DNA of 33,802 nt from Cytophagia bacterium CHB2 (GTDB lineage: Bacteria > Zhuqueibacterota > Zhuqueibacteria > Zhuqueibacterales > Zhuqueibacteraceae): positions 1 through 33,802 of the forward strand of contig SZPB01000018.1 of the NCBI GenBank assembly GCA_030263535.1. The letters are read 5' to 3'. Within the stretch, counting starts at the first letter, position 1; the number at the start of each line of letters is the position of its first letter. Shown piece after piece: positions 4,073 to 33,802 of the stretch. Under the pieces are notes generated by a model, which saw only the letters and a list, made by a program, of their open reading frames with translations, made no database searches and had not been told where the DNA came from. Both the position numbers and the translations under genes were made by a program.

Positions 4073-4294
4073 TTAGACAATCTTCTCCATTCGCGCCTGC
4101 GGAAACTGCTCGAGAAATTCGCGCAGCGGTGTTTCGATTGCTTCCGCATCATCCACGGGCACACGAATCTTAAACAGCGCTTCGAGTTCAACACCATCGG
4201 CAATGTCTTCGCCGAATTCCTTTGCTTCGACGCCGGCGTTAACGATGCGAAGATATGAAGCAATGTCCTCATGGCTCATCGTGATGGGTGCCAT
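4073..4294 (-). CDS. Small acidic hypothetical protein
   Basis: A 73-residue acidic protein from ATG 4294, preceded by GGGGCGAG four bases upstream; an internal ATG at Met6 (MSHEDI) is possible. The sequence alternates helices and strands (HEDIASYLRIVNAGVEAKEF, GVELEALFKIRVPVDD), ending in a Gln/Arg-rich helix. No family was recognised. It lies 29 bases upstream of the methyltransferase remnant and would be the first gene of the minus-strand integrase module, just downstream of the terminator that closes the restriction operon. It could be a controller or partner of the former methyltransferase, but nothing in the sequence proves this. Confidence 0.4.
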   Translation of the reverse strand: MAPITMSHEDIASYLRIVNAGVEAKEFGEDIADGVELEALFKIRVPVDDAEAIETPLREFLEQFPQARMEKIV

Positions 4295-4330
4295 CTCGCC
4301 CCATTCTCTAGCTCTCGCGAATCAGCCGCA

Positions 4331-4369
4331 ACAAAAACAAAAAGGCCACAATCACCAATGATTGTGGCC
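4331..4369 (-). terminator. Strong intrinsic terminator closing the hsd operon
   Basis: Read on the minus strand, this is a perfect 11-base-pair stem GGCCACAATCA/TGATTGTGGCC with a four-base loop, followed directly by TTTTTGTTTTTGT. It lies about 140 bases after the end of the YgjP-like gene and before the integrase module, so it separates the two minus-strand transcription units. Confidence 0.85.
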
Positions 4370-4506
4370 GCTATATGCAAACAAAGATCACAAACTTCCA
4401 GATAGTTGGAAGATTCCTCCCAACCACCCAGTCTTTAACAGAAGTCGATCACCTTTTTTATCCGTTCTCTCATGATGCGAATTGTCTCATTCTATCACCT
4501 CGATCC

Positions 4507-8357: not shown

Positions 8358-9664
8358 TTCAGTATCTCCCAACGACCGGCCTTTGTGGAACCAACATGAC
8401 GAATGATCCCTGCCGATTTTAATTTACCTAAATGGTATTTTATTCCATCATCGCTGAAACCCAATTCTACTGCCATCGCTTTGCGTGTTATCGTCGGATT
8501 AGTGCGTAGCAAAGCCAAAATTTTTTCTTGGGTAGTTTCTTGGGTAGTGCTTCCCATTTGCTGCTCAGAAAAATGGAACCCAAACCATAATCCCGTCTTT
8601 TCATAATTTATTTCCGGCTCCGGCAGCCTGGCGGCTTTGCATGCTTCCAAAATGCGCGCGATGCCTCTGCCCCAGGCCTCGATCATGCCCGCCCGGAAGA
8701 AGACGTTGGCGATGTCGGGATTGAAGGGTTGGGAGGGATGTTTGCCTTTCAGCTTGGCCACTGTCCAGTCAGGGGGAAGCTCGCCGGGGTTCCACACCAT
8801 GTTCTTGTCAGAATACACACTGATCTGAATTGGAGTATCGGCTCCATAATCCTTGTGGATGATGGCGTTCAAGACCGCCTCACGCAGAGCCGCCTCAGGT
8901 ACGGGAAAGGTTTCCAAGCGCCGGATGCCCCGGTAGCTGATGCTCGCCCTCAGGTATTTGGTGAGCAAGAGATCCATCGTCTTGGACACCTGGGTCAAGA
9001 GATCGCCGTGGATTTCGTCGTGATAAAGCAGATCCGTGCTGGTACGAAAGAAACCGATCTTCACAAAGGCACCGGTGAAGAAGCGTTCCGGATCGGGATG
9101 GAACACAAGCACAGCGGCCCGTTTGAGATATTGGTTGTCGAGCAAATGCAGCTTATCGATAAGCCCCGGTGTGGATTCCCGCAGGATGGTGGAATCCAGA
9201 CGCTGGCTTTCGCGCGCTAATTGCCGGAAGGCAACAATGGCCGGCTTGGACAAATCCTTGATTGTAACGTGCGGCACCGGCACACCGTCCCAGTGCCGTC
9301 CCTGCTTGCGCAAAAGGAAACGGTCCAGCGCGGCACCCTTGAGAATCTGGTTCGTGCTGCCGCTGCGATAGAAATACTCGCCTTTGTAGCTCACCGGATT
9401 CGAATAGGGCTCCACCACGATTTCAAGGTATTCTCTGCCAGCTTTTGCACGTAGGTTGACTTTCACCATGATGCCCAGAATGTCCCTGACCTTGTTGGGA
9501 ATATCCTCGAGCAGTTTCGGCGCATTGGCAACGCCCACAACTTCACCCCGGTCATTCTTTCCGATCACCAGCGTACCGCCCTCGGCATTGGCAAAGCCGC
9601 AAATCCATTTGAGATATTCATCCCGCCAAGAGGCTTTGTATTCGATACTCTGGTCTTCTTTCAT
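8354..9664 (-). CDS. AlbA_2/Schlafen-type putative ATP-binding and DNA-binding protein
   Basis: A 436-residue protein inserted between hsdS and hsdR. Residues 1-130 match the AlbA_2 (Schlafen AAA_4) fold: SIEYKASWRDEYLKWICGFA, NAEGGTLVIGKNDRGEVVGV, and FYRSGSTNQIL. The middle has an ATPase-like region of the kind called RecG-like C-terminal (REAVLNAIIHKDYG, near 275; WGRGIARILEACK). The last ~60 residues form a winged helix (ITRKAMAVELGFSDDGIKYH), preceded by a TTQETTQEKI linker common in this group. Such proteins frequently accompany type I restriction loci, perhaps as regulators or effectors. Coupling by four-base overlaps on both sides makes it an integral gene of this operon. The molecular role is not established. 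Confidence 0.88.
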   Translation of the reverse strand: MKEDQSIEYKASWRDEYLKWICGFANAEGGTLVIGKNDRGEVVGVANAPKLLEDIPNKVRDILGIMVKVNLRAKAGREYLEIVVEPYSNPVSYKGEYFYRSGSTNQILKGAALDRFLLRKQGRHWDGVPVPHVTIKDLSKPAIVAFRQLARESQRLDSTILRESTPGLIDKLHLLDNQYLKRAAVLVFHPDPERFFTGAFVKIGFFRTSTDLLYHDEIHGDLLTQVSKTMDLLLTKYLRASISYRGIRRLETFPVPEAALREAVLNAIIHKDYGADTPIQISVYSDKNMVWNPGELPPDWTVAKLKGKHPSQPFNPDIANVFFRAGMIEAWGRGIARILEACKAARLPEPEINYEKTGLWFGFHFSEQQMGSTTQETTQEKILALLRTNPTITRKAMAVELGFSDDGIKYHLGKLKSAGIIRHVGSTKAGRWEILK

Positions 9665-10893
9665 ATCAACCGTACCCTCCCGGTTAAAAGTTCCTGCATC
9701 ATGCCCTGCTTGAGCTGGCGAACTTTCGCGAGTTTGGCTTCCAGCGCGGCGATCTCGGCGTCCATGTCGCTCAGGATGGCGGCGATGGCGGTTTGTTCGG
9801 CCAACTCTGGCAAAGGAATCGGAACACCTCCAATCTCGCCCATGTTGATTTTCTTGGGGGAGGCGTTCATCAACGACCTTTCCTCAATATCAAGCCTGAA
9901 TTGGCGGCATTTTGTGTAACAATGGATATAGCGTGAATCTATGCCATGCTTCACCTTCAGCAAAGCCAAGCTCACGTAGATACTGGCCTCAACATCCCAA
10001 TCAATCAGCTTTGTATCGCCTATAGCACCGATACGGGTAAGGAGAATGTCGCCCTTTTCTGGCTTGCACCGTTTGACGAGTTGATTGTGCTCTTTCACGG
10101 ATATGAACTTTGTGTCCGCGAAGTTGTTGGCTGTAACATTCTCCACGCTGTAGAAAGGAATTCCCGTTTCCATGTATTGCGGTGTGAAATGAGTGCCGTC
10201 GGTAATTGAGCTACAAACGTCCATCAACGTCTTCACCTCCCACTCTCCACTAAACTCCGGCAGGCGCTTCTTGCCGGTGAGCAACTCCTGCATGGCGCCT
10301 TGTTTGATCTGACGTTTTTTGGCGATGAGCTGCTCCAGCGATTCGATGAGGGCATCCGCATCGCTCAACGCCTCGGCGATGGCTTCTTGTTCGGAGAGGG
10401 AGGATGGACGCGGAATTGGAACTTTTTCGAATTTATCCTTCGGTAAGTGGGCAATACTAGTTTGCGTTACAAAGTTGGTCAAATATCCAGTTGATGCCAA
10501 CCGTTGAAGTACGTTTAACATCAATTGCACTTTGTAACCACGAATTGGCCGAAGTCTATGCAATGCTTTCTGATAATAACATTCCGCAATCGGTTCGTTC
10601 CAAATTGCAGCGCGCCCAATTTCTCCCCCTTCGCAAACAAGAAGGTCACCTTTGAGCAGTCGAAAACGTTGGAGATCAGACGGAGTCATTCTGATAACAC
10701 CAAGGTCATTGAGATCTATGCGCCCCCACTGGACGGCTCTATTGCCCAAATAAGACTTTGGTACGCCGACGTTTTTTTCAGAATCCAACATTTTACCGAG
10801 TTGGATTGAGAATTCGTTGCCTACTGTGGTAACGTCCCAATCCTCCGGAATCAACCCCACCTCTGTCTGTTTGTAGCCCGGCTTCATTTCCAT
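9661..10893 (-). CDS. hsdS: Type I restriction enzyme specificity subunit (HsdS)
   Basis: DNA recognition subunit with the normal two-fold layout. The first target recognition domain begins KQTEVGLIPEDWDVTTVGNE and the second at GEWEVKTLMDVCSSITDGTH. Each is followed by a conserved helix of the pattern EQEAIAEALSDADALIESLE or EQTAIAAILSDMDAEIAALE, then KQG-M-QELLTGK/R. Length is 410 residues, as usual. The start chosen is ATG 10893, which overlaps the end of hsdM by ten bases and has GGAAAGGA upstream; ATG 10887 is an ATGA-overlap alternative. A reading extending to 11070 is only an out-of-frame read of hsdM. The target sequence cannot be deduced here. Confidence 0.95.
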   Translation of the reverse strand: MEMKPGYKQTEVGLIPEDWDVTTVGNEFSIQLGKMLDSEKNVGVPKSYLGNRAVQWGRIDLNDLGVIRMTPSDLQRFRLLKGDLLVCEGGEIGRAAIWNEPIAECYYQKALHRLRPIRGYKVQLMLNVLQRLASTGYLTNFVTQTSIAHLPKDKFEKVPIPRPSSLSEQEAIAEALSDADALIESLEQLIAKKRQIKQGAMQELLTGKKRLPEFSGEWEVKTLMDVCSSITDGTHFTPQYMETGIPFYSVENVTANNFADTKFISVKEHNQLVKRCKPEKGDILLTRIGAIGDTKLIDWDVEASIYVSLALLKVKHGIDSRYIHCYTKCRQFRLDIEERSLMNASPKKINMGEIGGVPIPLPELAEQTAIAAILSDMDAEIAALEAKLAKVRQLKQGMMQELLTGRVRLI

Positions 10894-13298
10894 GCGAATC
10901 CCATCCTTTCCAAATGGCCGTTCACTTTCGCTTCGAGTTCGGCCATGCGGCTGGCCATCTGCGGCAGCGGTGTTGCGTAGCGTTCGGCCAGATCCTTCAC
11001 GCGTTGGGTGAGCGCTTGGCTGATGCGATCCATTTCGCCATGAATGGCAGCCTCCAGCGCGGCGAGCCATTTGTCCTCCACCACCAGCGTCTTGATCTCT
11101 TTTTCAGTAAGCTTGGGATATTGCGCGTAAGCTTTGGCGTCCAACTCGGTCTCGGATTCTTTCAACTTTTTCTTAAGTTCGGATTCTTCATTGGCAAGCT
11201 TCAGCCATTCCTCCAACACCGCCTTCTCTTCCGCTGGCACTTCTTCATTTTCACTTTTCAACTCCTCCAGTCGCGCGATGACATTCGCCTTGCTGATTTT
11301 TTCCAGCTCAGAGAAAGCGCCTTCTTCACCGCCGTGCTCTTCTTCCAACTCATTCATTCGAGCGGTGACGCTTTCCAACTCGGTTTGCAATTGGTTGATC
11401 GCCTCTTGCTCTTTGGCGAAATAGCGGACGACGATGAGTGCTTTGGGAACGAGATCGCAGGCCCAGCCTTTGTCTTTCTCCTTGCCCTTCTTGTCTTTCT
11501 CAATGATGCGATAGGTCTCGGCTTTCCAGCCGTCAGCGGCGATGAGATAGCAATCGTCCTGCATCGTCTCGGCCCAATAATCCATGAGGTGCTGATAAAC
11601 GTCATATTTGTCAATCAGCGGCTTGCCCGCGTAGTGGGCCAAAATATCCTCAGCAAGCGCGGCGATGATTTCCTTCGGATGACAGCCGGCCTTTAAAGCC
11701 TTGAGCGTGCCGGCACTCTTGTTTCGCCAGGCAGCAAAGACGGCATTCATCCTCTCGGTAAAAGCGACGAACTCGGCGTGTTCGTAAATGGTCCGCTTCA
11801 GTTGCGCCAGAGAAATTGACAATTGCGAGTAGTCTTCTCTGAGCGGCTCGAAGAGCGCGGATTTGAGATGAGGCAGGACCGCCCAGTATTTCTCCAGCGC
11901 CTCGATGTCACGGTTCGGCATGCCGCCGCGCAGGTGGCCCGCAATGTCTTGCACGTCCTCGGCCTGCTGGCTGTCGATGTAGCGCGGCAGGTTGAGGTTG
12001 AATTCGTTCTTCTCGATCTCCGCGAAGCTGACCATGCGGGAATATTTTTGAATTTCAAGCTGCCGGTTGAAAACATCAACGATCTTGTGGATGTCCATCG
12101 CGCGCAGGCGGTTCTTGTTGCCATCTTTCATGTAGCCGGCGCTGGCATCGATCATGAAGATACCCTTGCGAGCGCGGGCGTCTTTCTTGTCGATCACCAC
12201 GATGCAAGCGGGAATGCCGGTGCCGTAGAAGAGATTGGCGGGCAGTCCAATGATGCCTTTGATATAACCCTTGCGCACGAGATTGCGGCGGATGTCGGCC
12301 TCGGCATTGCCGCGAAACAGCACGCCGTGCGGCAGAATGCACGCGCCGGTGCCCGTGCTTTTGAGCGAGCGCACGATGTGCAACAAATAGGCGTAATCAC
12401 CCTGCTTGCCCGGCGGCACGCCAAAAGCCTTGAAGCGTTCGTGCGGATCGTTCAGCGGATCGAGACCGGTGCTCCAGCGCTTGTCGCTGAACGGCGGATT
12501 GGCGACAACGTAGTCGAAGGTTTTAAGCGTATCACCGTCTTTGAATTTGGGATCGGTCAACGTGTTGCCCTGCACGATCAGTGCCGTGGGGTTGTTGTGC
12601 AGAATCATATTCATGCGCGCCAAGCCTGAAGTGGCAGCGTCTTTCTCCTGCCCATTCAAAGTGACCGGCGTGCGCGCTTCATCGGCAACCTTGAGCAACA
12701 GCGAGCCGGAGCCGCAAGTAGGGTCATAGACAGTGGTGGCGCTGGTGGTCTTGGCCTCGCGAATGCCAAGAATCTGCGCGATGATGCGGCTCACCTCCGC
12801 GGGCGTGTAGAATTGGCCTTTGCTCTTGCCACTCTCCGTGGCAAAGTGGCGCATGAGGTATTCGTAGGCATCGCCCAGAATATCATCGCCCTCCGCGCGA
12901 TTCTTGGAGAAATCGAGCGCCGGGTTTTCGAAGATGGCGATGAGGTTCGTAAGGCGCTCGATCTTTTCCTTGCCGTCGCCGAGTTTGGTGGCGTCGTTGA
13001 AATCGGGAAAATCGGACTGGGAAATCTGCCTATTGTGCTTGGCCAGCGGTGCGACAATCTTTTTGTTGATGTCATCGCCAATGTTCGTCTTACCCTTGAG
13101 TGCGACCATATCACGAAAGCTCGCGCCTTTGGGGATCGTGATGGGAGCAAAACGGACGCCGGCGTATTTGTCGCTAATGTATTTGATGAAGAGCAGAACG
13201 AGCACGTAATCTTTGTACTGGCTGGCATCCATGCCGCCGCGCAGCTCGTCGCAACTTGCCCAGAGGGAGGAGTAGAGTTCGGATTTTTTGATGGCCAT
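10884..13298 (-). CDS. hsdM: Type I restriction enzyme methyltransferase subunit (HsdM)
   Basis: N6-adenine methyltransferase subunit, 804 residues. The N-terminal helical domain starts at SELYSSLWASCDELRGGMDA. The SAM-binding motif DPTCGSGSLLLKVA lies at 192-205 and the catalytic NPPF at 267-270. FATESGKSKGQFYTPAEVSR (151-170) is a typical HsdM signature. Beyond ~residue 480 the protein continues for 320 residues with a long charged coiled coil (NQLQTELESVTARMNELEEE, then repeated Glu/Lys helices), which ordinary ~500-residue HsdM lacks but the longer HsdM subfamily has. It is the first gene of the operon. No strong ribosome binding site precedes the ATG. It should modify host DNA and form the M2S1 core. 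Confidence 0.96.
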   Translation of the reverse strand: MAIKKSELYSSLWASCDELRGGMDASQYKDYVLVLLFIKYISDKYAGVRFAPITIPKGASFRDMVALKGKTNIGDDINKKIVAPLAKHNRQISQSDFPDFNDATKLGDGKEKIERLTNLIAIFENPALDFSKNRAEGDDILGDAYEYLMRHFATESGKSKGQFYTPAEVSRIIAQILGIREAKTTSATTVYDPTCGSGSLLLKVADEARTPVTLNGQEKDAATSGLARMNMILHNNPTALIVQGNTLTDPKFKDGDTLKTFDYVVANPPFSDKRWSTGLDPLNDPHERFKAFGVPPGKQGDYAYLLHIVRSLKSTGTGACILPHGVLFRGNAEADIRRNLVRKGYIKGIIGLPANLFYGTGIPACIVVIDKKDARARKGIFMIDASAGYMKDGNKNRLRAMDIHKIVDVFNRQLEIQKYSRMVSFAEIEKNEFNLNLPRYIDSQQAEDVQDIAGHLRGGMPNRDIEALEKYWAVLPHLKSALFEPLREDYSQLSISLAQLKRTIYEHAEFVAFTERMNAVFAAWRNKSAGTLKALKAGCHPKEIIAALAEDILAHYAGKPLIDKYDVYQHLMDYWAETMQDDCYLIAADGWKAETYRIIEKDKKGKEKDKGWACDLVPKALIVVRYFAKEQEAINQLQTELESVTARMNELEEEHGGEEGAFSELEKISKANVIARLEELKSENEEVPAEEKAVLEEWLKLANEESELKKKLKESETELDAKAYAQYPKLTEKEIKTLVVEDKWLAALEAAIHGEMDRISQALTQRVKDLAERYATPLPQMASRMAELEAKVNGHLERMGFAWK

Positions 13299-15345: not shown

Positions 15346-16503
15346 TCATTTGGTTAGGCTTTTAATATCACTTGGATCCGCACCGTTTGCTAGAAGCATG
15401 TCCACAATATCCGAATGATTATGAGCTGCTGCATGCCAAAGTGCAGAAACGCCACCCTTATTTTTGAGATTAATATTGGCATGATTATCAATTAATATCT
15501 TGACGGCTTTAGTTTGCCCGTTTCGTGCTGCTCTCATTAAGGCCGTATATCCACCATCTGCACCACTTGCCCTCGTACCATCTGACCTAGCATTAACGTC
15601 TGCCCCGTTATCAATGAGAATTTTCATAATGTCGTCATAACCAAATCGCGCCGCAATCATAAGCGCAGTAACTTCGATAGAGCCTTGTGCTTTCGAGTTT
15701 ACATCGGCACCATTTTCGACCAACATCTTGACAACTTCAACTTGATTTCGGCGTGTGGCAGACATTAGCGCCGTTTGTCCCTCCACATTTGTTTCATTGA
15801 CATCGGCACCTTCCTTTATAAGCTTTCGCACTTCTGCTATATCGCCATTGTATGCAGCAGACATCAAAGGCGTATTCCTAATCTTGACAGGTATTTCACT
15901 CTCACTGTTGGCAAAGGAGTCAGTCAAAGCCTTTTTGAAATCTCCATCTGATATCAAAGGCACATTCCTAATCTTGACAGGTATTTCACTCTCACTATTG
16001 GCAAAGGCGACAGTCAAAGCCTTTTTGAAATCTTCCATGGTGTAATTCTTCTTTTCAAACATGAATTTAATTGCCGCTTTTGCGCCTCCCTCGTCTGTTA
16101 TTCCGATTTGTATTTGATCTCGGCCTAATTTCACTTCATGAATCTCTACTTTTCTACCTTTATGCCAAACTCGCACCTCTCCATCTTTTATTTTCTTGCT
16201 CGCCTCGTCTGCAAAATCTTCTGCTGCTGTGGATTGTGTGTCTCTAAATGCAGATAGCCCTTCACCAACTTTTGCTTTGTAGTATGTCTTCCCATCAGGA
16301 TCAACATATGTCGCATCTTTTCCTCCTATGCCATACTGAATTCTTACAACGTCGATTCTCAACCATTTTTGCTGTCCTTCTAGTTCTTTTGCCATAGCTT
16401 GTATTGTTGTTGTTGAGTCCCCCTGCCCTCCAGCAAAAATTGGCGGAATAGAAAACGCGACGATAAAAAGTATCGAACATTCAAAATAGATAAAGCGTTT
16501 CAT
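15346..16503 (-). CDS. Exported ankyrin-repeat protein with internal tandem duplication
   Basis: A 385-residue protein. The start is ATG 16503, with GGAGG six bases upstream; the first ~24 residues (MKRFIYFECSILFIVAFSIP, then Ala-Gly) are a signal peptide. Residues 30-160 form an unrecognised alpha/beta domain with a KVGEGLSAF and a charged EVRVWHKGRKVEIHE segment. Two nearly identical 30-residue units (FANSESEIPVKIRN) follow. The C-terminal ~180 residues are about five ankyrin repeats (for example GQTALMSATRRNQVEVVKML, then VENGADVN). Ankyrin repeats bind proteins. The export signal suggests a periplasmic or surface location. Partner and role are unknown. Confidence 0.85.
   Translation of the reverse strand: MKRFIYFECSILFIVAFSIPPIFAGGQGDSTTTIQAMAKELEGQQKWLRIDVVRIQYGIGGKDATYVDPDGKTYYKAKVGEGLSAFRDTQSTAAEDFADEASKKIKDGEVRVWHKGRKVEIHEVKLGRDQIQIGITDEGGAKAAIKFMFEKKNYTMEDFKKALTVAFANSESEIPVKIRNVPLISDGDFKKALTDSFANSESEIPVKIRNTPLMSAAYNGDIAEVRKLIKEGADVNETNVEGQTALMSATRRNQVEVVKMLVENGADVNSKAQGSIEVTALMIAARFGYDDIMKILIDNGADVNARSDGTRASGADGGYTALMRAARNGQTKAVKILIDNHANINLKNKGGVSALWHAAAHNHSDIVDMLLANGADPSDIKSLTK
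15863..16036. repeat. 90-bp tandem duplication inside the ankyrin gene
   Basis: Two copies of about 84 bases, at 15863-15946 and 15953-16036, are offset by exactly 90 bases and differ at only a few positions. Each encodes a unit containing DFKKALT-x-x-FANSESEIPV then KIRN. The near identity at the DNA level shows a recent, in-frame duplication of 30 codons. Confidence 0.85.
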
Positions 16504-16687
16504 TTTAAGCCTCCGTATATAAAGACGGTGATCTGTGGTCTTATTAAACCATCGAATTTCCTTTGCATACCGAATCACAGTTTTGGAATTTTAGGGCAAC
16601 CTCAAATCAATGCCTCAAAAATACTTCAAAAACTTCCTCAGCGCGACTCCGGAAGTTCTAATACGAGTTTCAGCGGTTACGGGATTT

Positions 16688-19826: not shown

Positions 19827-20984
19827 ATGAAGCACCACCTGTTGGCAATGCTGGGCTTGCACCCCAAGGTACTGACTGAGACCCTCTACGGTTTGTGTGT
19901 CAAACGAGGGATCGCCATTACAAAGGTGATTGGCATAGCGAGTGGAGTGGCGAGGCAGAAGATCGTTTCCGAGCTGCTGAATCCCGTTACCGGCGAGTTT
20001 TACAAGTTGTGCCGTGAGTATCCGGAGTGTTTTACCGGCATTCAGTTCTCGGCGGAAAGTGTGCGGGTGGCCCGTCTCGGAGACGACGAAATAGCCGACA
20101 TCGCCAACTCACGCCAAAGCCAGGCGTATTTGGATTTGATCATGCGAACGGTGATGGAAATGACCGCGCACAAAGAGGTTTGCCTGCATAGCGTGGTCGC
20201 AGGCGGCAGGCGCACCATGAGCGTCTATCTCGCGATGGTAATGCAGCTTCTCGCGCGGCCGCAGGATCACATGTACCATCTTTTTGTCGAGCCGTGGGAG
20301 GCGGAGACAAATTCGGATTTCTTCTTTCCGCCCCGCCAGTCGAGGCCCATGACTACGTACGGCGGTCTGGCTTTCGATGCAAAGGATGTGCTCGTCGAAC
20401 TCGTGGAAATTCCTTTCCTGCATTTGCGGCCGCACGTGCCCGCGGAGCTGCTGCGCTCGCCCGACTATCAGGACATTCTCGCGTGGGTGCAGCGCGAGGT
20501 GAATGTTGCACCCCAACTCCTGCCACTCAGCATTGACGTAGATCAGCATCGCATTCTGATCGGCGCCATTCCAATCTCCCTGGAACCGGCGGAGTTGGCG
20601 ATCTATTGGTATTTTGCCGAGAAGAGTGCCAAGCGCGAGGAACGTGTTGCTCGGGAGTATTATGAAGGCTATTTCGAAAAGCCAAAGGCCGATGGACATT
20701 TCTCCCGCCAGGCTTCGGCGCGCATGAAGAGTCTGTATGAAACTCTGGTGCAGCGCCATGGCATGCGCAGCCGTTTTCTCAATGCTTTCAACAAGGAAGG
20801 CCGCATTGATTTGGAGCATCTGCGCCCGCACTTCAGCAACCTCAAGCGCAAAATCAGCGAAAAGTTTCTGGACGAAGATTTCAACCGCTGGTACGTCGTC
20901 TCCGCCATCGGTCCGCGCGGGGATACGTGCTATGGCATTCGGTTGGATCGGGAGTTTATTCGACTGCCGGAGGCAAGATTGTGA
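19827..20984 (+). CDS. CARF-domain CRISPR protein of the Cas_NE0113 type with C-terminal winged-helix-like region
   Basis: A 385-residue protein. Residues 1-180 form a CARF (Rossmann-like) domain that binds cyclic oligoadenylate in type III CRISPR systems. It starts HHLLAMLGLHPKVLTETLYG and contains HSVVAGGRRTMSVYLAMVMQ (119-138) followed by DHMYHLFV, the hallmark of the NE0113 family. Members of this family are thought to act as cOA sensors or ring nucleases. The second half (SLEPAELAIYWYFAEKSAKR near 255, then a long helical stretch to FLDEDFNRWY) resembles a winged helix plus helices, suggesting a DNA-binding or regulatory output. No HEPN or other nuclease motif was seen. It precedes the CARF-HEPN gene by about 90 bases. 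Confidence 0.82.
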   Translation: MKHHLLAMLGLHPKVLTETLYGLCVKRGIAITKVIGIASGVARQKIVSELLNPVTGEFYKLCREYPECFTGIQFSAESVRVARLGDDEIADIANSRQSQAYLDLIMRTVMEMTAHKEVCLHSVVAGGRRTMSVYLAMVMQLLARPQDHMYHLFVEPWEAETNSDFFFPPRQSRPMTTYGGLAFDAKDVLVELVEIPFLHLRPHVPAELLRSPDYQDILAWVQREVNVAPQLLPLSIDVDQHRILIGAIPISLEPAELAIYWYFAEKSAKREERVAREYYEGYFEKPKADGHFSRQASARMKSLYETLVQRHGMRSRFLNAFNKEGRIDLEHLRPHFSNLKRKISEKFLDEDFNRWYVVSAIGPRGDTCYGIRLDREFIRLPEARL

Positions 20985-21075: not shown

Positions 21076-22686
21076 ATGCCGTGCGACGTCGATAGTTTGA
21101 AAAGCCAAACGGAGAATTATTGGCGCAATTTACAAGATGCCAATAGCGAGAGGGCCCGTGACGGAATTGTTCAAAGCGTTTATCTTGAGAGCTTGCTCCG
21201 CGATGAAATTGCCTGCGCAAAGGAGCGCGCCCTCACCCAAGAGGGCGTTTGGCCGCAAGAACAGGCCGAAGTGCTCGTGCTTTTAGTCGGCCACTCCATC
21301 GAGCCGCTCTTACAAACCGTTTGCGCTTATGAACCAAAAGAAATCGTTTTGGTTTTGAGCCAAAAATACAACGCGCCTAACGACGGGATGCTCTTTGCGG
21401 AAGATCATGTACTGCCTTGTCTGCGCGCGCTGAAAGAGTTGGAATCGCCGCTCCTAAAGCGGCATTTTGCAGAGCTTCGCTGTGTTTGTCCGAAACCAGG
21501 GCAAGGCAGCAGGCCCGGCGATGTTTTTCAGCTACTCTTTGAAGCTTTGAGCGAAGACGTCAAGAAGAAAAAAAATATCATCATTGATATCACCGGCGGC
21601 AAGAAGAGCATGGTTGCCGGCGCCTATTTCTTTGCGACCTATACCAACGTCAAAATTTCTTATGTCGATTTTGAAGACTATCATGAAAGGAAACGGCGGC
21701 CTTACGGCTTCTCGTGCCAGATCGGCCTGCTTCCTAATCCCTATGAAATTTTCGGCCTGCGCGATTGGGAACAGGTCAAGAGCCTTTACAAACGCTTCTT
21801 CTTTGATGAAGCCGTCAAGAAACTGTGCATCATCGCCAAAGACATGTCGTCGGAGTATTTTAAACCTGAACAAATCACCGCAGTCGAAACGTTGATCAAA
21901 ATCATGCGCGTTTATCACGCATGGAGCGTGGGCGATTACGCGCAAGCGAAAAAGTTGAGCGACGAAGTAAAAGTCTTGCAGCCACTCGCCTCGGTTGAAG
22001 CATTGCACGATAAGTGGCCGGAGAATATTGACTCTGAGCCCAGGCTGCGACTAAGCGATTGGGATTTTTATTCCAATCACAAGCTCATTCTGCAATACGC
22101 GCTCGATGAAAGCGCCAAAGTGGACCGCATTGTGAAACTCAAGGAAGATTACCGCTCCGGTCTGTTGCGCGCTGCGGGTTTGAACGAGGTGTTGCTCAAA
22201 GCGCGGCTAGCTTTTTTGTGCGAAAGAAAGATGCTCTTGCTTTATAGAAAGGATCAAAAGCTGGCCGATGCCGACGCTCAAAACACCGTCGTCGATGGGC
22301 AACAAGTTAAAGCTTGGTTTGCGGAGGAGATACTGCGAGCAAAGAACAAGGAGAAAGTCCCTGCAAAAGCGGCACTGAAAGCAGAAAAGACCGAGAATGC
22401 CTTGCCATATATGAGCCAGTCACCAGAGTACCGTGCGATACTAACAAAAGATCGCGACCTCAGAAATGGAGTCATCCACTTCGTCATTCCAGTTTCAAAG
22501 CAGATCGCATACGAAGCCGTGGATGCAATGCACAAAAACGTGCAAGATTTCGAGCAAGTATGGGTGCAATCAGTTGACCCAAAACACCAAATAAAGCCGG
22601 ATACTTTGCCGACCTGGGAAGAATTGTGCGGATGGTGCAATATCGATTTTCTGCTGCATCCAAAGAAACAGGAGAAGCAATCATGA
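21076..22686 (+). CDS. CARF-HEPN ribonuclease, Csm6/Cas02710-like
   Basis: A 536-residue ancillary nuclease of type III CRISPR systems. The CARF half has VLVLLVGHSIEPLLQTVCAY and the ligand-loop motif DITGGKKSMVAGAYFF at Asp171, characteristic of the TIGR02710/Csm6-like group. The helical C-terminal half ends in a HEPN domain with the catalytic R-x4-H: Arg463 to His468 in DLRNGVIHFV. On binding cyclic oligoadenylate made by Cas10, such proteins degrade RNA non-specifically. The start is ATG 21076, six bases after GGAG; ATG 21064 is the alternative. The stop overlaps the cas10 start (ATGA), so sensor and signal producer are translationally coupled. Confidence 0.88.
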   Translation: MPCDVDSLKSQTENYWRNLQDANSERARDGIVQSVYLESLLRDEIACAKERALTQEGVWPQEQAEVLVLLVGHSIEPLLQTVCAYEPKEIVLVLSQKYNAPNDGMLFAEDHVLPCLRALKELESPLLKRHFAELRCVCPKPGQGSRPGDVFQLLFEALSEDVKKKKNIIIDITGGKKSMVAGAYFFATYTNVKISYVDFEDYHERKRRPYGFSCQIGLLPNPYEIFGLRDWEQVKSLYKRFFFDEAVKKLCIIAKDMSSEYFKPEQITAVETLIKIMRVYHAWSVGDYAQAKKLSDEVKVLQPLASVEALHDKWPENIDSEPRLRLSDWDFYSNHKLILQYALDESAKVDRIVKLKEDYRSGLLRAAGLNEVLLKARLAFLCERKMLLLYRKDQKLADADAQNTVVDGQQVKAWFAEEILRAKNKEKVPAKAALKAEKTENALPYMSQSPEYRAILTKDRDLRNGVIHFVIPVSKQIAYEAVDAMHKNVQDFEQVWVQSVDPKHQIKPDTLPTWEELCGWCNIDFLLHPKKQEKQS

Positions 22687-24302
22687 AACGTTATCTCGTG
22701 GCGGCCGACGCCGACCAAATTCAAAACCTGCTGTTTCGATCCTCGCACTTGCGCGAGGTCATCGGCGGCAGCATGATGCTGTCACGGTTTTGCAAGGAAG
22801 AGACGAACCCGGCGTTGGCGAAAATTATCACGGACTTTCACGGCAACGTCATTATCAACGACGGCGGCAGTTTCCGCCTAACCCTCGGCTCCGACAAAGA
22901 GGCGAAAGACTTTCTCGAATGCCTCGCAGACTTGTTCCGTGAAGAGACCGGCGGTACGCTAACCGTTGCCGGACCGATTGAGTATAACGACGGCGAGTTT
23001 CGAAGTAAGAACGAAACGCTCCAACTCGAATTGCTCAATGCAAAATACTACCGCACAGGCGCAGAGGCCGAGCCGCAATTGCCCGTCAGCGCATTTTGCA
23101 CGTCATGCGGAATTGGTTTGGCGGCGCAATATGCTAGACCGGCATGGGAGCTTCCCGGCGAAGAAAAGACCTATTTGTGTAATCACTGCTACGACAAGGC
23201 AGAAGACAAACTGCTCAAAGCGCATTTCTTCTATCAAGACTACCGTGATGCAATTAAGAAGAAACACGCCGCCGACTTCAATAAGTTTTTGGAGAATCCC
23301 AAAGACCCGGCCGAGCTTATCGGCAGCCTCGATGCAACACAATATGTCGGCTATGTTTTGGCGGATGTCAACGGCATGGGCAGGCATTTCAACCGACGTG
23401 AATCACCGGAAGACCTCACTAAGTTGTCCAATGATTTGACGGCCGCGCTCTGGGCAAGTCTAGCAGCGCCGATCCCGGATTTGATCAAACGCTTGCGGGA
23501 ACGCAAGAGTGGAGAACGTGAACTCATTGAGAAGTTGGAAAACCGCATGCCCATCGTTCCTCTCATCCTCGGCGGCGACGACGTGCTCGCACTCGTGCCT
23601 GCGCGTTATGCTTTAGATATTGGCTCCCGTTTCGGTGAAGAATTTGAAAAGCACATGAACGGAATCACCATCGGCGTGGCGGTGATCATTTGCCAAAAAC
23701 ATTATCCCTACACTTTGGCATATGAAAGAGGGCACAAATTGCTGGAGCAAGCGAAAAAGCACGGCAAGAGTCTTGGCACGCAAAAGCTGTCGGCGATCAA
23801 CTTCGAAGTGATTCTCGGCAACGAGCTGAAAGTTTCGGCGGAGGATGAAGTGGGTAAAGAAAAAGAGTATCACTCTTCGCTGAAGCCTTATTGGATCGGC
23901 GCCAAAGCAAATGCGGAGTCATCCGAGTCTTCGCATGCCGGAATTCATTTTGAGCGCATCCTTCATCATCGCCTCGCACTCAAAAACATTCCACAAAAGC
24001 GCTTGCACGAGCTGCGCCGTTTCTTTGACCCTCGGCGATTAAACGAGTTGCACAAAGACAAAGAACGAGAAGAGTGGAACAAAGGCTTCGAAGATTTTCT
24101 TCATAGGATAAAACCTGAAAGCTGGGCCAGTGCGCTGGAAAGCGCCATAAAAGAGTTGGGACCCTGGCGCAACATCAAGCGATGGCCAAAAAAGGATTTC
24201 GATCCCGCGACCGGCCTGCTCGATTTGATCGAAGCATGGGATTATGCTTACAAACTGGATAAGCCGGACAAAGACTACCAACCGAAGGAGTCACGAGCAT
24301 GA
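22683..24302 (+). CDS. cas10: Cas10-type subunit without HD domain, GGDD cyclase intact
   Basis: Large-subunit signature protein of type III CRISPR complexes, 539 residues. It begins directly with a palm-like domain (LVAADADQIQNLLFRSSHLR, then EVIGGSMMLSRF) of the Cas10/Cmr2 type, so the usual N-terminal HD nuclease is absent. A zinc ribbon follows (Cys139/Cys142 and Cys166/Cys169). The second palm has the catalytic residues LADVNGMGRHF (Asp228) and LILGGDDVLAL (GGDD at 297-300). The protein should convert ATP to cyclic oligoadenylate but not cleave DNA. The C-terminal helices (RFFDPRRLNELHKDKEREEW) complete it. The start has an AGGAGA ribosome binding site. The end overlaps the next gene by four bases. 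Confidence 0.92.
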   Translation: MKRYLVAADADQIQNLLFRSSHLREVIGGSMMLSRFCKEETNPALAKIITDFHGNVIINDGGSFRLTLGSDKEAKDFLECLADLFREETGGTLTVAGPIEYNDGEFRSKNETLQLELLNAKYYRTGAEAEPQLPVSAFCTSCGIGLAAQYARPAWELPGEEKTYLCNHCYDKAEDKLLKAHFFYQDYRDAIKKKHAADFNKFLENPKDPAELIGSLDATQYVGYVLADVNGMGRHFNRRESPEDLTKLSNDLTAALWASLAAPIPDLIKRLRERKSGERELIEKLENRMPIVPLILGGDDVLALVPARYALDIGSRFGEEFEKHMNGITIGVAVIICQKHYPYTLAYERGHKLLEQAKKHGKSLGTQKLSAINFEVILGNELKVSAEDEVGKEKEYHSSLKPYWIGAKANAESSESSHAGIHFERILHHRLALKNIPQKRLHELRRFFDPRRLNELHKDKEREEWNKGFEDFLHRIKPESWASALESAIKELGPWRNIKRWPKKDFDPATGLLDLIEAWDYAYKLDKPDKDYQPKESRA

Positions 24303-26800
24303 CATTGACATTCAAACTCGAACTGAAATCCGATTATCACGTCGGCGCCGGCCATCGCAAAGGCACGGAAATCGACTCCGCTTTGCTGCGTGAACACGAC
24401 GGACGCCCGGCATTGCGTGGCTCGTTGCTCGGTCAAATGTTGCGCGATTCCGCGCGAGAGTTATTGACGACTCCTGTGATGGCAAAGCATGGATATGGAA
24501 TCTGTAAAGCTTCGGGCGACCGAGAAGAGCCGGAGTATTGCGGCCAATGGCAAAATAATGAAGGCGTTTGCCCGATTTGCCGCGTCTTCGGCACACCGCG
24601 CGCGCCGCGACGCTGGCAATTTTCTTCCGCATGGTTGCAGGGAATGCAAGCCGGCGCAACAGCAGAGAATCATAGCAACGATTGGGGCGCGCAACCCGTC
24701 ATGCGCGTGCGCGTCAGCCCAGAAACTCGCCGCGCCGAAGCGAATAAATTGTTTAGCGAGGAGATCGGCGACAGTCGCTTGGTCTTTCGCTTCGAAGCAA
24801 CGTGGCAGGGCAACGGCAAGCCTGATGAAAAAGAAATCGCACTGTTAGCTGCCGCAGCGGCGAACATGCGGCATCTCGGCAAAAGCCGAAGACGAGGCCG
24901 CGGGGTGTGCCGAGTGCAATTGATCAAGGTTGACAACCAAGAGCCGCCTGAAAATGTTGACTGGCTCAAGCTGTTCAAGCAAGAATTGGTTGACAAGAAA
25001 TGGCAGCCCGAACCGCACGAGCAAAACAAATCGGCACCGGCGTTGAGCGCGGAATCGCCTGCGCCGGCTTGGCAACCGGTGCGCGTGCGTGTCGTTGTGC
25101 ATTTGGACGAGCCCGTTTTGGTGGCGCACCGTTCTTCGGCTGGAAATCAATTCGAAGGCCTCGACACGCTTCCCGGAAACATTTTGCTCGGTGCATTGGC
25201 CGCGCGCGCCGTGCGCCATCTCGATTTAGGCAAAACTGACGATTATCAAAACTTCGTCGGCCTCTTTCGTCGCGGTTGGGCGCGGTTTTCTTTTTTGGCA
25301 TTGGCTCATGAAAAACACGACAAGCTCTACCCCGCCTTTGCGTCGCCTCTGGATATCTTTCGCTGCAAGCGACAATCTCCGCATGACCCGCAAAGAAAAT
25401 TTTACGACCGTGCCTTTGCGCTAACGGAAGCGGAGAAAGAAAAAATCATTTGCGATCTCTGCGCCAAACAATACGATGAGGAGGACGCCGAGGTCGAAAA
25501 ACTCGAATGCCTTCAAACTTTGCGCGCCGGCTTTATGCAGGAACTCGCTTTTGAGCAACGCGAAGAGATGCACGTGCAAATCAACCCCGCAACGCAGCGC
25601 GCCGAAGACGGCAAGCTCTTCGAATATGTTTGCTTGCAAGCCGGCCAATATCTCTGCGGCGAAATCATTTGCCGCAATCAAAAGGTTTGGGAAGCTCTGC
25701 GCCAATGCGCCGAATTGATTGAAAGCATGGAAAGCAAACAGCAAGCGATTCCGTTGCGCTTGGGCAAAGCCACGCGCAGAGGTTATGGGCGCGTCTCGGC
25801 GTTTTTCTTTGTTGAAAAAGACGACAAGGGGCTTTATCAAAACACTCTGAGCCAACGCCTGCCCGATCCCAAGCAGCCGTTCACGCTTTTGCTCACCACC
25901 GACACGATCATTCGCGACAAGTGGGGCCGCTTTCCGACACGCTTTGAAGAAGATTGGCTCGCTGAAGCGTTGGGCTTGGAAAAGGGAGACCTCAAATTGA
26001 TTCGCGGCTTTGCCAAAACGCGCGAGATTGACGGATTTCATAACTACCTCGGCCTGCCGCGCTGGCGCGATCGCGCTTTTGTTGCGGGTTCGGTTGCGGG
26101 CATTCAAATCGTTGGCGGCAAATATACCAATGATGAGATTGTGAAAAAGCTGGAGCGTCTTGAATGGGAAGGCATCGGCCTGCGCCGTCACGAAGGCTTC
26201 GGCCAAATCGTGGTCAATCATCCGGTGTATGAAGCCATTAAAAATCCACACAGCGGAGCCCGAATTGATATCGAGTGGAAGAGCAAGCCGCAAAGAGTCA
26301 AGCTTGAAAACCAAATTGAAAACGAGCGCAAGTTTCGGCAAGATTGGGAAGGGATTCTTGCACAACTTGGCGACAAGCATCTCGACAAGCATCTCAAGGA
26401 GGGCCAACGTTGGCGGCAATTCGAGTTCAAAGAATTCGCGCCGGTCGCGCGGCTGCTGCGTGCGCGAAGCGATGCCGCGATCAGTGATCTTATAAAAGAA
26501 TTGCAGGCGTTGGGGGATTTCAAACTCGAACAACCCGAGGGCGAGAAAGAGCTATACGTGGAGAAAAAGCTGAACTACCGGATCAAGCTCGGAGAAAACC
26601 AAACACCCGCGCCGCGCGAGACCAAAAAGTTCTTCGAGAAAGAAGACAGGGGCAAGCCCGGCATCGAATTGATCAAAGAGGCTTTTGCCAAGTTGCAAAC
26701 GACTTCGAATGACGCGAAACTGCGCGCCATCGGCGTGGAAATGCTCGCCTTGATCATCGCCGAGGCCGCCAATCGCGCCATCAAAGAAGGGAGAAAATGA
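24299..26800 (+). CDS. Fused Cas7-Cas5(Csx10)-Cas11-like subunit of a type III-D variant complex
   Basis: An 833-residue multidomain RAMP protein. Residues 1-215 are a Csm3-like Cas7: HVGAGHRKGTEIDSALL with Asp26 at the position of the RNA-cleaving aspartate, RGSLLGQMLRDSA, zinc cysteines ending in CPICRVFGTP, and a Gly/Arg-rich KSRRRGRGVCRV strand. Residues ~258-640 are Csx10/Cas5: LVAHRSSAGNQFEGLDTLPG, NILLGALAARAV, CDLC (~385), and a glycine-rich loop LGKATRRGYGRVSAFF. The last ~170 residues are mainly helical and fit a Cas11 small subunit. The same order is known from the Cas7-5-11 fusion of the III-Dv complex. It probably caps the crRNA 5' end and cuts target RNA. Confidence 0.85.
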   Translation: MTLTFKLELKSDYHVGAGHRKGTEIDSALLREHDGRPALRGSLLGQMLRDSARELLTTPVMAKHGYGICKASGDREEPEYCGQWQNNEGVCPICRVFGTPRAPRRWQFSSAWLQGMQAGATAENHSNDWGAQPVMRVRVSPETRRAEANKLFSEEIGDSRLVFRFEATWQGNGKPDEKEIALLAAAAANMRHLGKSRRRGRGVCRVQLIKVDNQEPPENVDWLKLFKQELVDKKWQPEPHEQNKSAPALSAESPAPAWQPVRVRVVVHLDEPVLVAHRSSAGNQFEGLDTLPGNILLGALAARAVRHLDLGKTDDYQNFVGLFRRGWARFSFLALAHEKHDKLYPAFASPLDIFRCKRQSPHDPQRKFYDRAFALTEAEKEKIICDLCAKQYDEEDAEVEKLECLQTLRAGFMQELAFEQREEMHVQINPATQRAEDGKLFEYVCLQAGQYLCGEIICRNQKVWEALRQCAELIESMESKQQAIPLRLGKATRRGYGRVSAFFFVEKDDKGLYQNTLSQRLPDPKQPFTLLLTTDTIIRDKWGRFPTRFEEDWLAEALGLEKGDLKLIRGFAKTREIDGFHNYLGLPRWRDRAFVAGSVAGIQIVGGKYTNDEIVKKLERLEWEGIGLRRHEGFGQIVVNHPVYEAIKNPHSGARIDIEWKSKPQRVKLENQIENERKFRQDWEGILAQLGDKHLDKHLKEGQRWRQFEFKEFAPVARLLRARSDAAISDLIKELQALGDFKLEQPEGEKELYVEKKLNYRIKLGENQTPAPRETKKFFEKEDRGKPGIELIKEAFAKLQTTSNDAKLRAIGVEMLALIIAEAANRAIKEGRK

Positions 26801-28578
26801 TGACCGAAAAAAAATATCAAGCCGTGATCGCCGAACTGATCTTCGAAACGGCGCTGCACGTGGGTACCGGCCGCGACAATCCCGGCACCGATGCACCCGT
26901 GCGCCGCAATAACACCGGCGACCTCGTGATTCCCGGAACCGCGATTGCCGGCGCACTGCGAACACTCGCAACTCGCCTCGCGCCGCGAATCGATCTGACA
27001 GCAAAGCGAAAGTGTATCGAACTTTCTTATGAAGACAAACAGAAGCGCGAAGAAGATAAAATCTGTGGCTGCGCGGTTTGCCATCTCTTCGGCGAGTTCT
27101 ATCCCAACAAGAAAAACACCAAAACCGAAGATGATGGCGGTCGCGCCTCGCGTTTGTGGATTTACGATGCCAAGCTTATCTCTGCGCCGCGGCCCTTCGT
27201 GCGCGACGGCGTAGGCATTGATCGCAGAACCGGTGTTGCGGCCAGCGCCGCGCGGGTGAAGTTCGATACCGAAGTCGTTCCCGCCGGAGCCAAGTTTGAA
27301 TTGCGTGTTGAAATGGAAGACGTCAACGATAATGACCTGAAGTTGCTCGCCGCAACGCTCGCGGAATGGCAGGCGGGTCGCGCCTGGCTCGGCGGCAACA
27401 CCGCGCGCGGCTTGGGCAACGCCAAGCTTGACAAAATTCGTTTCATGCGCAATGAGTTGGATACTGGAAAGCAGTTATTAGATTATCTCAAAGCTGATGA
27501 CCCGAAGGACGCTGCCACAGAAGTTACAGACTGGTTGAAGCACAAGGTCGCAAATGCGCGCGAAAATCCCAATCCTGGTTACAACGGCAAGAATCGGCCG
27601 TTCCTCGCCGCGAGTTTTCAACTTGCGTTCGACGGCCCGTTTTTGATGCACGACGCCACTGCGGCCACGGTCGTGGGCTTCGATCATCTGCCCTTGCTCG
27701 ACGCTGTTCCTGGATTTAATGAAAAACCGCGACCACCCCTCATGGCCGGCTCAGGCTTGCGCGGCGTTTTGCGCTCGCACGCCGAACGTATTGCGCGCAC
27801 GATTGCTTCATTCAACGCTTACAACGCATACAAAGAAGGCAAAGGCGAGGCAAGCAAGCTATTTCTCAAAAGTTGCCCGGCGTGCAATCCGTTGGAAGAT
27901 GATGCCACGAAACCTTTGACAAGATGCGATAAGTTTTTGGAAACCTCCGAGGAATTTGAGAAAATAAAAGACCATGTCGAAGATAAGCACCTCTGCCTCG
28001 GCTGTCTCTTGTTTGGCAGCACCGTGCGCGGCAGCCGTTTGAAAATGATGGATGCGAAGCTCGAAGGTGAGCCGCAATGGAAGCTGCTCGATTTTCTTGC
28101 CATCGACCGCTTTACCGGCGGCGGCTTGGAAGGCGCGAAGTTCGACGCCATGGCCTTGTGGCGACCGACCTTCAACGTGAAGTTGTTTCTCGAAGAGCCG
28201 GAAGATTGGGAACTCGGTTGGCTCGCGTTGGTGCTGCGCGATATGATCGAGCAGCGTTTGACTTTCGGCTTCGGTGCGGCGAAGGGCTTTGGCCATGCGC
28301 GAGCGCAAAAGATCGAAATTCAATGCGGCTTCTTGCGGGATGATGATTGGGGCGTTGATTTCGGTAAAATCAAACCCAAAGATGAAAATGTGCCCGGCTT
28401 CTATCGCGTGGCAAAATTCACCGAAGCTGATTGGGAAGCGCAGAAAAGTATCGTGAGCAAGTGGGTCGAAGTTTTTCGCACGAAGCTAAAACGCGAAGGC
28501 GAAACTTTGCCAACTCGCAAGCAAGACTCCTACTTCGATGGCAATCTTGAAAAACTCTATCCCCTGACGGAGGCTTGA
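26797..28578 (+). CDS. Double Cas7 (Cas7-2x) backbone subunit
   Basis: A 593-residue protein with two consecutive Csm3-type RAMP domains. The first (1-210) has LHVGTGRDNPGTDAPVRRNN with Asp32 at the catalytic position, VIPGTAIAGALRTLA, a CGCAVCHLFGEF zinc motif and a glycine-rich GRAWLGGNTARGLGNAKL loop. The second (~268-590) has GPFLMHDATAATVVGFDHLP, PLMAGSGLRGVLRSHA, a split Cys motif ending in HLCLGCLLFGST, and a final LTFGFGAAKGFGHA loop. Each domain would cover part of the crRNA spacer. Domain one has the cleavage aspartate; in domain two no clearly equivalent residue stands in the same context. It overlaps the previous stop by four bases. Confidence 0.87.
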   Translation: MMTEKKYQAVIAELIFETALHVGTGRDNPGTDAPVRRNNTGDLVIPGTAIAGALRTLATRLAPRIDLTAKRKCIELSYEDKQKREEDKICGCAVCHLFGEFYPNKKNTKTEDDGGRASRLWIYDAKLISAPRPFVRDGVGIDRRTGVAASAARVKFDTEVVPAGAKFELRVEMEDVNDNDLKLLAATLAEWQAGRAWLGGNTARGLGNAKLDKIRFMRNELDTGKQLLDYLKADDPKDAATEVTDWLKHKVANARENPNPGYNGKNRPFLAASFQLAFDGPFLMHDATAATVVGFDHLPLLDAVPGFNEKPRPPLMAGSGLRGVLRSHAERIARTIASFNAYNAYKEGKGEASKLFLKSCPACNPLEDDATKPLTRCDKFLETSEEFEKIKDHVEDKHLCLGCLLFGSTVRGSRLKMMDAKLEGEPQWKLLDFLAIDRFTGGGLEGAKFDAMALWRPTFNVKLFLEEPEDWELGWLALVLRDMIEQRLTFGFGAAKGFGHARAQKIEIQCGFLRDDDWGVDFGKIKPKDENVPGFYRVAKFTEADWEAQKSIVSKWVEVFRTKLKREGETLPTRKQDSYFDGNLEKLYPLTEA

Positions 28579-28579: not shown

Positions 28580-29224
28580 ATGAGCGAATTAGGAAAGCTT
28601 GAATGGAGCAAAGATAAATTTGCGGTTTGGGGTGGAAAGCTGAAACCGACTGAATGGCTCGACTTTCTCGAAGCATGGAAATGGAAAGACGACAAGCGCT
28701 GGCGCATATTGGAATTCGTCAGCGACTTCAAAATCGAGGACGATAAACCGCAGATTATTTCTGAAAAGGATATTCCGCTTTTGGAGCGCGCCGAGTTTTT
28801 CGGCAAAAGCGGCCACCTGAGCACGCGCCGCGACGGTGAAACGGTTTATTGGCACTTCGTCGGCGAACGTGACATCAAAGTGCCGGATGGCTATGATGAC
28901 GTGAAGAACAATTATTGGACGGCGCATCCCGAAGATAAATTCCGCCGCTCTGAAAAGCACATGCTCCTCTGGGGCGAGCGCATCAAAGATGGGGACACAT
29001 GGACGAACGATTGGTTTGATGACCGCGTCGGTTGGGCGAAGTTGAGCTATCCTCATGTTGAAGAGCCAAAAAATGGCAATGCGGAAAATCAACCCCCTGC
29101 TGCCAAAGAACAAAATCAGCGCGTGCAAGCGAACTACTGGCAATTCACCCGCGCCGGACAGGTGGCATTTGTATGGCTTACGGGTCTGAGCGAATATCAA
29201 CCGCAAGAGGAACAAAATGGCTAA
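28580..29224 (+). CDS. csx19: Csx19-like type III-D CRISPR protein
   Basis: A 214-residue protein with the TIGR03984/Csx19 pattern: ERAEFFGKSGHLSTRRDGET, then VYWHFVGE, then a KHMLLWGERI strand followed by WFDDRVGWAKLSYP. Csx19 is a III-D-specific subunit; in the known III-Dv complex it sits on the backbone near the double Cas7. The start has GGAGG six bases upstream and follows the previous stop after a single base. A Glu/Gln-rich disordered linker (about 155-178) precedes a last strand QANYWQFTRAGQVAFVWLTG. The end overlaps the next gene by eight bases. Confidence 0.8.
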   Translation: MSELGKLEWSKDKFAVWGGKLKPTEWLDFLEAWKWKDDKRWRILEFVSDFKIEDDKPQIISEKDIPLLERAEFFGKSGHLSTRRDGETVYWHFVGERDIKVPDGYDDVKNNYWTAHPEDKFRRSEKHMLLWGERIKDGDTWTNDWFDDRVGWAKLSYPHVEEPKNGNAENQPPAAKEQNQRVQANYWQFTRAGQVAFVWLTGLSEYQPQEEQNG

Positions 29225-31634: not shown

Positions 31635-31661
31635 ACGCCACAATCTTCAGGGAGCGTGAAT

Positions 31662-33044
31662 ATGCTAGCGGTAGAACCTTGCAAGCTGGTTGAGTTGGGA
31701 ACACTCATCTCGAACCTTCGTGCCATTGAAGCTGACGTCAGTGTAAAAAAGGCTCGAGGGCAGCTCGACTCCGTTTTCGATTTGCTCGGTCTCTTTGGTC
31801 TGCAAAGAACGATCAACAAAATTGACGGTATCGCTCAAGATATACGAAATCAATTTATAGATATTGAGAGCACAAACGGTAACGGCAAAGAGGAGACCGA
31901 TACTAGCAATTACGCCATCGGCATGGGTTTAGCCAATGATTTCGAAGCATTTGCGAATCAAGTTGAATCAGAACTGAAGCGTGAATGTGAAGATCGTGAA
32001 GAGCTTCGAATTTTCATTCCGGAAATGAAGCTGCATGAACTGAAAAGACTAATCAATACGGAAAAAGTCGTAAGTGAAGAATTTGTCGAAGGCGCGTTTA
32101 ATTGGCTGCCAAAAGTGGTGAAACACGACTTTAAAGATGCGGCCTGCTGTTTGTCTTATGGCGTGAGCACAGGTGCCGCTAGCTTAATGCTCCGTGCAAC
32201 AGAGGCTTCTTTACGGCACTTTTATCGTTGCTACTTGAAGACAGAGCCTTTCAACAAATCTCATTGGCAAAATCTGAAAAACAATTCGGATAGACAGGAC
32301 CAACTACTTCCAGAAACCCTTAATTGGTATAAAATGACGAAAGGGTTAGACGGGGTATTTCTGAATGAACATGATCCTGATTTATATCATGAACTTGAAA
32401 TATTGCGTGAACATTATCGCAATCCTACACAACATGCAGCACGAAGATTTGACAAAAGGGAGGCTGAGATGTTGTGGAAGAACTGCTGCAGTGCCGTCAA
32501 TCGAATTCATAATCGAATTCAAATAGAAGATGTAGTTTTGAAGGTTTGCATGCCATGGCCTTGCGATCTTGACACCTTGTTCGCTATTCATCTCATCAAT
32601 GACAACGCGGGCCTAATTGGCGAGTGGGAATTTGTTGGTCTCAACGACAAAAGCGATGACCATCAGGGAGGTTATGTGGTCAATTGCGCGAGGGGACAAT
32701 TCGACCGCAGTCAACTCAAAGAACCCAAATCCGCCAGTTGGATGCTTATAAAGCATTTCTGTTTACCTGAAGGCGGCGAATGGCAGAAACTTCTAAATCA
32801 TGTGAATCAGACCGTCGTTCTTTACAAAAAAAATCCCAATGTCGATCCCCCAAAAGGGCTTTGGGGCTATGTTCATTGGTACATGAAGAATATGGTTGAG
32901 GAAATATCTAAAATAGAAACCATTGAAAAATTCTTGCCATTGATTGAATCCTATCTTGGCGACAAAAACCCAACTGATTTAGCGATTCTAAAGGACTCCA
33001 TTCTTAAACTGAAATCGCCACTACCTCTACCTGAATGGCTGTAG
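31662..33044 (+). CDS. HEPN-like protein of unknown family directly behind the CRISPR operon
   Basis: A 460-residue protein of no family I can name. The start is ATG 31662 with GGGAG seven bases upstream (GTG 31656 is possible), 27 bases after the cas7 stop. Residues ~1-120 are charged helices. Residues ~150-280 look like a HEPN domain: LSYGVSTGAASLMLRATEAS, LRHFYRCYL, then LREHYRNPTQHAARRFDKRE with Arg253-Asn-x3-His258, the RNase motif. The last ~180 residues form a separate domain with PWPCDLDTLFAIHLIND, EWEFVGLND, GGYVVNCARGQFDRSQ and a final helical segment. This faintly recalls MYG1/DHH-type hydrolases, but the metal ligands are not evident. Spacing and strand suggest an ancillary CRISPR nuclease. 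Confidence 0.6.
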   Translation: MLAVEPCKLVELGTLISNLRAIEADVSVKKARGQLDSVFDLLGLFGLQRTINKIDGIAQDIRNQFIDIESTNGNGKEETDTSNYAIGMGLANDFEAFANQVESELKRECEDREELRIFIPEMKLHELKRLINTEKVVSEEFVEGAFNWLPKVVKHDFKDAACCLSYGVSTGAASLMLRATEASLRHFYRCYLKTEPFNKSHWQNLKNNSDRQDQLLPETLNWYKMTKGLDGVFLNEHDPDLYHELEILREHYRNPTQHAARRFDKREAEMLWKNCCSAVNRIHNRIQIEDVVLKVCMPWPCDLDTLFAIHLINDNAGLIGEWEFVGLNDKSDDHQGGYVVNCARGQFDRSQLKEPKSASWMLIKHFCLPEGGEWQKLLNHVNQTVVLYKKNPNVDPPKGLWGYVHWYMKNMVEEISKIETIEKFLPLIESYLGDKNPTDLAILKDSILKLKSPLPLPEWL

Positions 33045-33708: not shown

Positions 33709-33802
33709 ATGGAACTGTTCAACGCTATTGGCTCTTTTGTCAGCATTCTCGCCGCGCTCTTTTCGCTTTTAGCGTGGCTCAAGGCGCGTAGAGTACAAAA
33801 AG
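33709..33802 (+). CDS. Start of a membrane-anchored protein (cut by window end)
   Basis: Thirty-one codons are visible from ATG 33709, two bases after the previous stop, with AAGGA nine bases upstream. They encode a short N-terminus and one transmembrane helix (IGSFVSILAALFSLLAWLKA), followed by a basic RRVQK stop-transfer. This is an N-out/C-in type anchor with the bulk of the protein outside the window. Given the operon, a membrane effector of the CRISPR response is possible, but nothing beyond the helix can be seen. Confidence 0.6.
   Translation, partial: MELFNAIGSFVSILAALFSLLAWLKARRVQK

Follow-up and report, generated by a model that had tools for sequence, protein, structure and literature searches.

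In published descriptions, the sensors of type III CRISPR signalling are CARF or SAVED domains almost without exception (PMC12669027), and all four CRISPR-associated HEPN families treated in PMC3710099 carry CARF. The same work places DUF4145 in the contexts of restriction-modification, TerD and McrBC. We analysed a stretch of 33,802 nucleotides from Cytophagia bacterium CHB2 (the window), in which a 460-aa protein, P0001 (31662-33044, + strand), is encoded behind a type III-D operon. An initial annotation had described P0001 as a HEPN-like protein without CARF domain, linked to the CRISPR genes and ending in a novel C-terminal domain. These points were borne out, but its suggestion that the C-terminus is of DHH/MYG1 type or a cOA hydrolase was not. 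Unlike the four CRISPR HEPN families, P0001 is matched by no CARF or SAVED model of Pfam, NCBIfam or PADLOC. The protein is a member of an unnamed HEPN family similar to DUF4145, with an N-terminal helical domain followed by the HEPN domain, to which P0001 adds an extra C-terminal region. On balance, P0001 probably serves type III-D as an accessory effector, a HEPN RNase whose control route is other than CARF or SAVED in P0001 itself. A literature search returned no description of this gene; surveys of type III accessory genes were outside its reach, and an earlier description is possible.

Judged by model matches, the cas genes of the window, all on the + strand, form a type III-D set. They comprise a CARF protein of the NE0113 family (19827-20984), a CARF-HEPN effector of the Csx1/Csm6 family (P0002, 21064-22686, start inferred), Cas10 (22683-24302), a Csx10-like Cas7-Cas5 fusion (24299-26800), a double Cas7 of the III-D type (26797-28578), Csx19 (28580-29224) and a further Cas7 (TIGR03986, 29217-31634). 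The last of these has a cold-shock domain at its N-terminus (PF00313, E 4.6e-9), and its homologue in the congener G001 apparently has one as well. Cas10 looks active by motif inspection, its GGDD cyclase motif being intact; it lacks an HD dipeptide, and messenger signalling would thus be expected in this operon; HD is present in only 3% of III-D systems (PMC11229360). Downstream of P0001 lies the gene for P0009 (33086-33706, +), a 206-aa protein of unknown function that has no family match, is found only in G000 and G001 and is conserved in the latter. It is followed by the start of a gene for a Csx23-like membrane protein (33709-33802, +), which is cut by the contig end. The homologue of this protein in G001 (L036 7601-7993, - strand) is related to a Csx23 protein, and that in L037 (14598-14999) matches the PADLOC Csx23 model at 2e-27. 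Elsewhere, the window holds a defence island (2450-13298, - strand) with the type I restriction-modification genes HsdM, HsdS and HsdR, which enclose a Schlafen/AlbA_2 gene and adjoin a phage integrase, and a gene for a 410-aa ankyrin-repeat protein (15346-16578, - strand).

The best start of P0001 is the ATG at 31662, which is backed by a Shine-Dalgarno sequence, AGGGAG (31649-31654, +), recognized by eye 7 nt ahead of it. Due to the mechanical open reading frame beginning at the GTG at 31656, residue numbers in our model and alignments are higher by two than those of the initial annotation, so that R255 and H260 correspond to its R253 and H258. Only 27 nt separate P0001 from the co-directional Cas7 gene upstream, and the next gene, P0009, begins at the ATG at 33086. 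In composition P0001 is an outlier among its neighbours: its GC and GC3 are both 0.43, as compared to 0.49-0.56 and 0.53-0.70 in the surrounding genes.

The HEPN domain (32100-32525, +; residues 149-290 of the open reading frame listing) contains the Rx4H motif RNPTQH at 32418-32435 (+). Taken alone, this string is weak evidence for HEPN, because 47% of shuffled copies of P0001 contain an Rx4H and 10% contain R[NDH]x3H. However, in an alignment of 17 divergent family sequences including P0001, the R and H of the motif are the only two columns identical throughout, which argues that the motif is more than a chance occurrence. The residue after the R is N in 15 of the 17, and a polar residue such as N is what has been described for this position of the HEPN motif (PMC3710099). 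P0001 itself stays under the cut-off of every HEPN-clan model, and its sole match among the profiles searched, with Pfam, NCBIfam and PADLOC all negative, is phrog_32483 (E 2e-4). Weak HEPN matches were obtained for four of eight members (L058, L059, L063 and L064), of which L064 scores above the Pfam threshold for DUF4145 and just under that for HEPN.

An AF2 model computed from an 8-row alignment places helices at residues 153-167, 171-194, 241-259 and 267-298, a four-helix HEPN fold whose third helix ends with the R/H motif, ahead of the fourth. The pLDDT of the whole model is only 57, with about 75-80 in the HEPN core; a single-sequence model (pLDDT 41) was uninformative. The leading PDB fold matches, over residues ~149-290, are nearly all HEPN domains, among them sacsin, several archaeal and bacterial HEPN proteins, RnlA and Csm6. 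The VIA-align scores are Z 10.9 for the sacsin HEPN domain 3o10 (117 residues, rmsd 2.8), 10.7 for 2q00 (120, 3.1), 9.8 for 1o3u (110, 2.8), 9.8 for 1ufb (115, 3.2), 8.8 for RnlA (142, 4.2) and 8.4 for Csm6 (125, 4.1), values that are not decisive, as Z scores below 13 can arise by chance in helical bundles. Foldseek gave no match reaching E 0.001, and a sequence-profile search of the PDB with the family alignment returned chance helical matches only. The HEPN assignment is thus based on motif, Pfam and fold all agreeing, and with these combined we are nearly certain that P0001 is a HEPN-fold protein. Its RNase activity is predicted from sequence and model.

Scans with P0001 as a single query against GTDB contigs, IMG/VR, plasmids and phages yielded no relatives, and none of the other 81 genomes searched in its phylum has the gene, not even that of the same species (G081). 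The phrog_32483 match led to a 274-aa protein of G055, which is encoded directly behind the equivalent Cas7 and matches P0001 in a pairwise comparison at E 4e-7. A Cas7-based scan of GTDB contigs exposed the same slot in further III-D loci, and in 8 of about 30 with a readable slot it carries a family member (L054, 510 aa; L056, 387; L058, 276; L059, 273; L061, 291; L062, frameshifted; L063, 274, the G055 locus; and L064, 255). Location-blind searches of whole genomes with the family profile added a split gene in G331 (L103) and a 289-aa protein in G819 (L112), both again behind Cas7. Counting the window and degraded copies, the position directly downstream of Cas7 is therefore held by a family member in 11 loci, and the association of the family with III-D operons is real. 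The gene that follows differs between loci (Cas7, Csx15, Cas6 or TM-SAVED), which leaves Cas7 as the one constant partner, and no constant antitoxin-like gene was found across the family loci. Short SAVED proteins are encoded near the family members in L063 (13168-13692, TM-SAVED) and L056 (17735-18208) and could act as the missing sensor at those two loci. Three candidates were discarded: a first weak match, L002 (E 0.004), and a match in G178 were unrelated proteins, and a borderline match in G042 was a HEPN gene next to what by eye is a nucleotidyltransferase-like gene.

The wider family looks different. In the location-blind genome sample its members lie mostly outside CRISPR loci, and eight of them (L104, L113, L125, L126, L127, L128, L129 and L130; the context of L126 and L130 is only partly known from short contigs) have the N-terminal plus HEPN layout with no Cas7 nearby. 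Such solitary cousins occur in Chloroflexota and Acidobacteriota. The III-D genes thus look recruited, and a CRISPR-specific role has to rest on gene order. The initial annotation had held that homologues mostly away from CRISPR loci, together with a lack of a predicted HEPN fold, would speak against it; the former describes the wider family, whereas the fold is predicted and family members recur in the III-D slot. A tree of 17 rows separates the nine III-D rows from the others by one branch, supported at only 62/56. In it P0001 and L056 form a pair (81/83), which a midpoint-rooted drawing puts with the solitary members. Recruitment may accordingly have taken place in one event or in two. Compared with the window at the DNA level, G001 has 83% identity in the P0009-Csx23 segment and only about 70%, in patches, in the cas genes; no similarity is seen at the P0001 slot, which in G001 holds an unrelated 322-aa protein. 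This protein (L036 8743-9711, - strand) matches no family model but has an RHQFVH motif and is possibly another HEPN protein. Given the exchanged gene in G001 and the low GC and GC3 of P0001, the latter seems to have come fairly recently into a position whose content changes.

Most of the N-terminal four-helix domain of P0001 (31662-32015, +; listing residues ~3-120) is modelled at pLDDT 84-90, and the domain is common to most of the family, solitary cousins included. The C-terminal region (32526-33041, +; listing residues 291-462, ~170 aa) contains the two strings quoted in the initial annotation and has no detectable relative: its scores are at background in Pfam, in PDB sequences and against its sister L056, and a search of 356 Anaerolineae genomes gave nothing beyond an open frame of 51 aa (E 0.007). 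L054 and L056 have C-terminal extensions of their own; long ones are mostly absent in solitary members.

A general HEPN toxin or abortive-infection gene, carried as cargo of the cas operon or protecting the locus as an addiction element and not under Cas10 control, would account for the solitary life of the broad family, and the deviating composition of P0001 and the unrelated gene in the G001 slot would fit it too; a low GC3 is equally what a passenger gene would show. We nevertheless consider this unlikely, since 11 loci have a family member in exactly the same slot, the family is accompanied by no constant gene that might serve as antitoxin, and the III-D members stand apart from the solitary ones in the tree, if only with the support of 62/56.

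HEPN carries out pre-crRNA processing in Cas13, and by analogy P0001 could be a structural or crRNA-handling subunit of III-D (an RNA-binding helical protein, Cas11-like, or a pre-crRNA processing factor). The helical nature of the family and its invariable place beside Cas7 at III-D loci agree with this, and HEPN domains can bind or cleave RNA (PMC3710099). The operon already has Csx19, however, dedicated Cas6 genes lie close to the family members in L054 and L064, and most of the III-D loci sampled do without the family gene, so that a gene of the P0001 type must be dispensable; we regard such a role as improbable. The same low probability is assigned to a further reading, in which the HEPN RNase would be joined to a degenerate DHH/MYG1-like nucleotide-binding domain and a nucleotide messenger would be sensed or processed by that domain. 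To the eye, the C-terminal region recalls MYG1/DHH in its order beta-PxDLD-helix-beta-VVNCARGQFD-helix, and L056 has a loosely similar PLEFD segment. Yet scores stay at background in Pfam, in PDB sequence searches and in pairwise comparisons, tested by shuffling, with L056 and with a genuine MYG1 protein (L108); 47% of shuffles score as high against the latter, so that a DHH/MYG1 identity finds no statistical support; the canonical DHH residues are not present as such (PWPCDLD, GQFDRS), and AF2 gives no confident fold.

For the accessory effector that we favour, recognition of a target by the III-D complex would switch on P0001 without CARF or SAVED in P0001, and a HEPN dimer would then cleave RNA and bring about growth arrest, in parallel with the CARF-HEPN and Csx23-like effectors of the operon. 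P0001 might dock to the complex from the side of Cas7; alternatively, its N- or C-terminal domain might sense a messenger. This reading builds on features seen in sequence or model (the fold, the invariant Rx4H, the recurrent slot, the missing CARF/SAVED match and the active-looking Cas10), from which we infer RNase activity, dimerisation, trigger, partner, substrate and physiological outcome. More tentatively, and rather doubtful as yet, either the N-terminal domain or the C-terminal region private to this HEPN branch could be a messenger sensor or Cas7-docking switch unrelated to CARF and SAVED; if so, type III-D would have a HEPN effector under a control not yet described. A HEPN branch fixed beside Cas7 without CARF or SAVED would suggest that control takes a different path, whether through a new sensor or by coupling directly to the effector complex, and this is directly testable in a small operon.

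Among known systems, the DUF4145/HEPN superfamily (PF13643, PF05168; PMC3710099) shares with P0001 the four-helix fold and the Rx4H with a polar residue after R, and one relative exceeds the DUF4145 cut-off, whereas P0001 itself remains under all cut-offs. The HEPN toxins RnlA and HepT (of MntA-HepT) resemble its HEPN region in fold, but belong to a toxin-antitoxin context with a constant antitoxin gene. Csx23 (PMC11014256) is a precedent for a type III effector whose messenger-binding domain is unrelated to CARF and SAVED; it differs in being a membrane protein without HEPN, and its own homologue begins two genes after P0001. With the Csx1/Csm6 CARF-HEPN effectors, P0001 has in common a HEPN domain, in its case a predicted RNase, within a type III operon, and its model matches Csm6 HEPN regions. 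Because it lacks CARF, P0001 is not a member of that family; it has a different N-terminal domain and stands in an operon that already encodes the CARF-HEPN protein P0002, but it may work like Csx1/Csm6.
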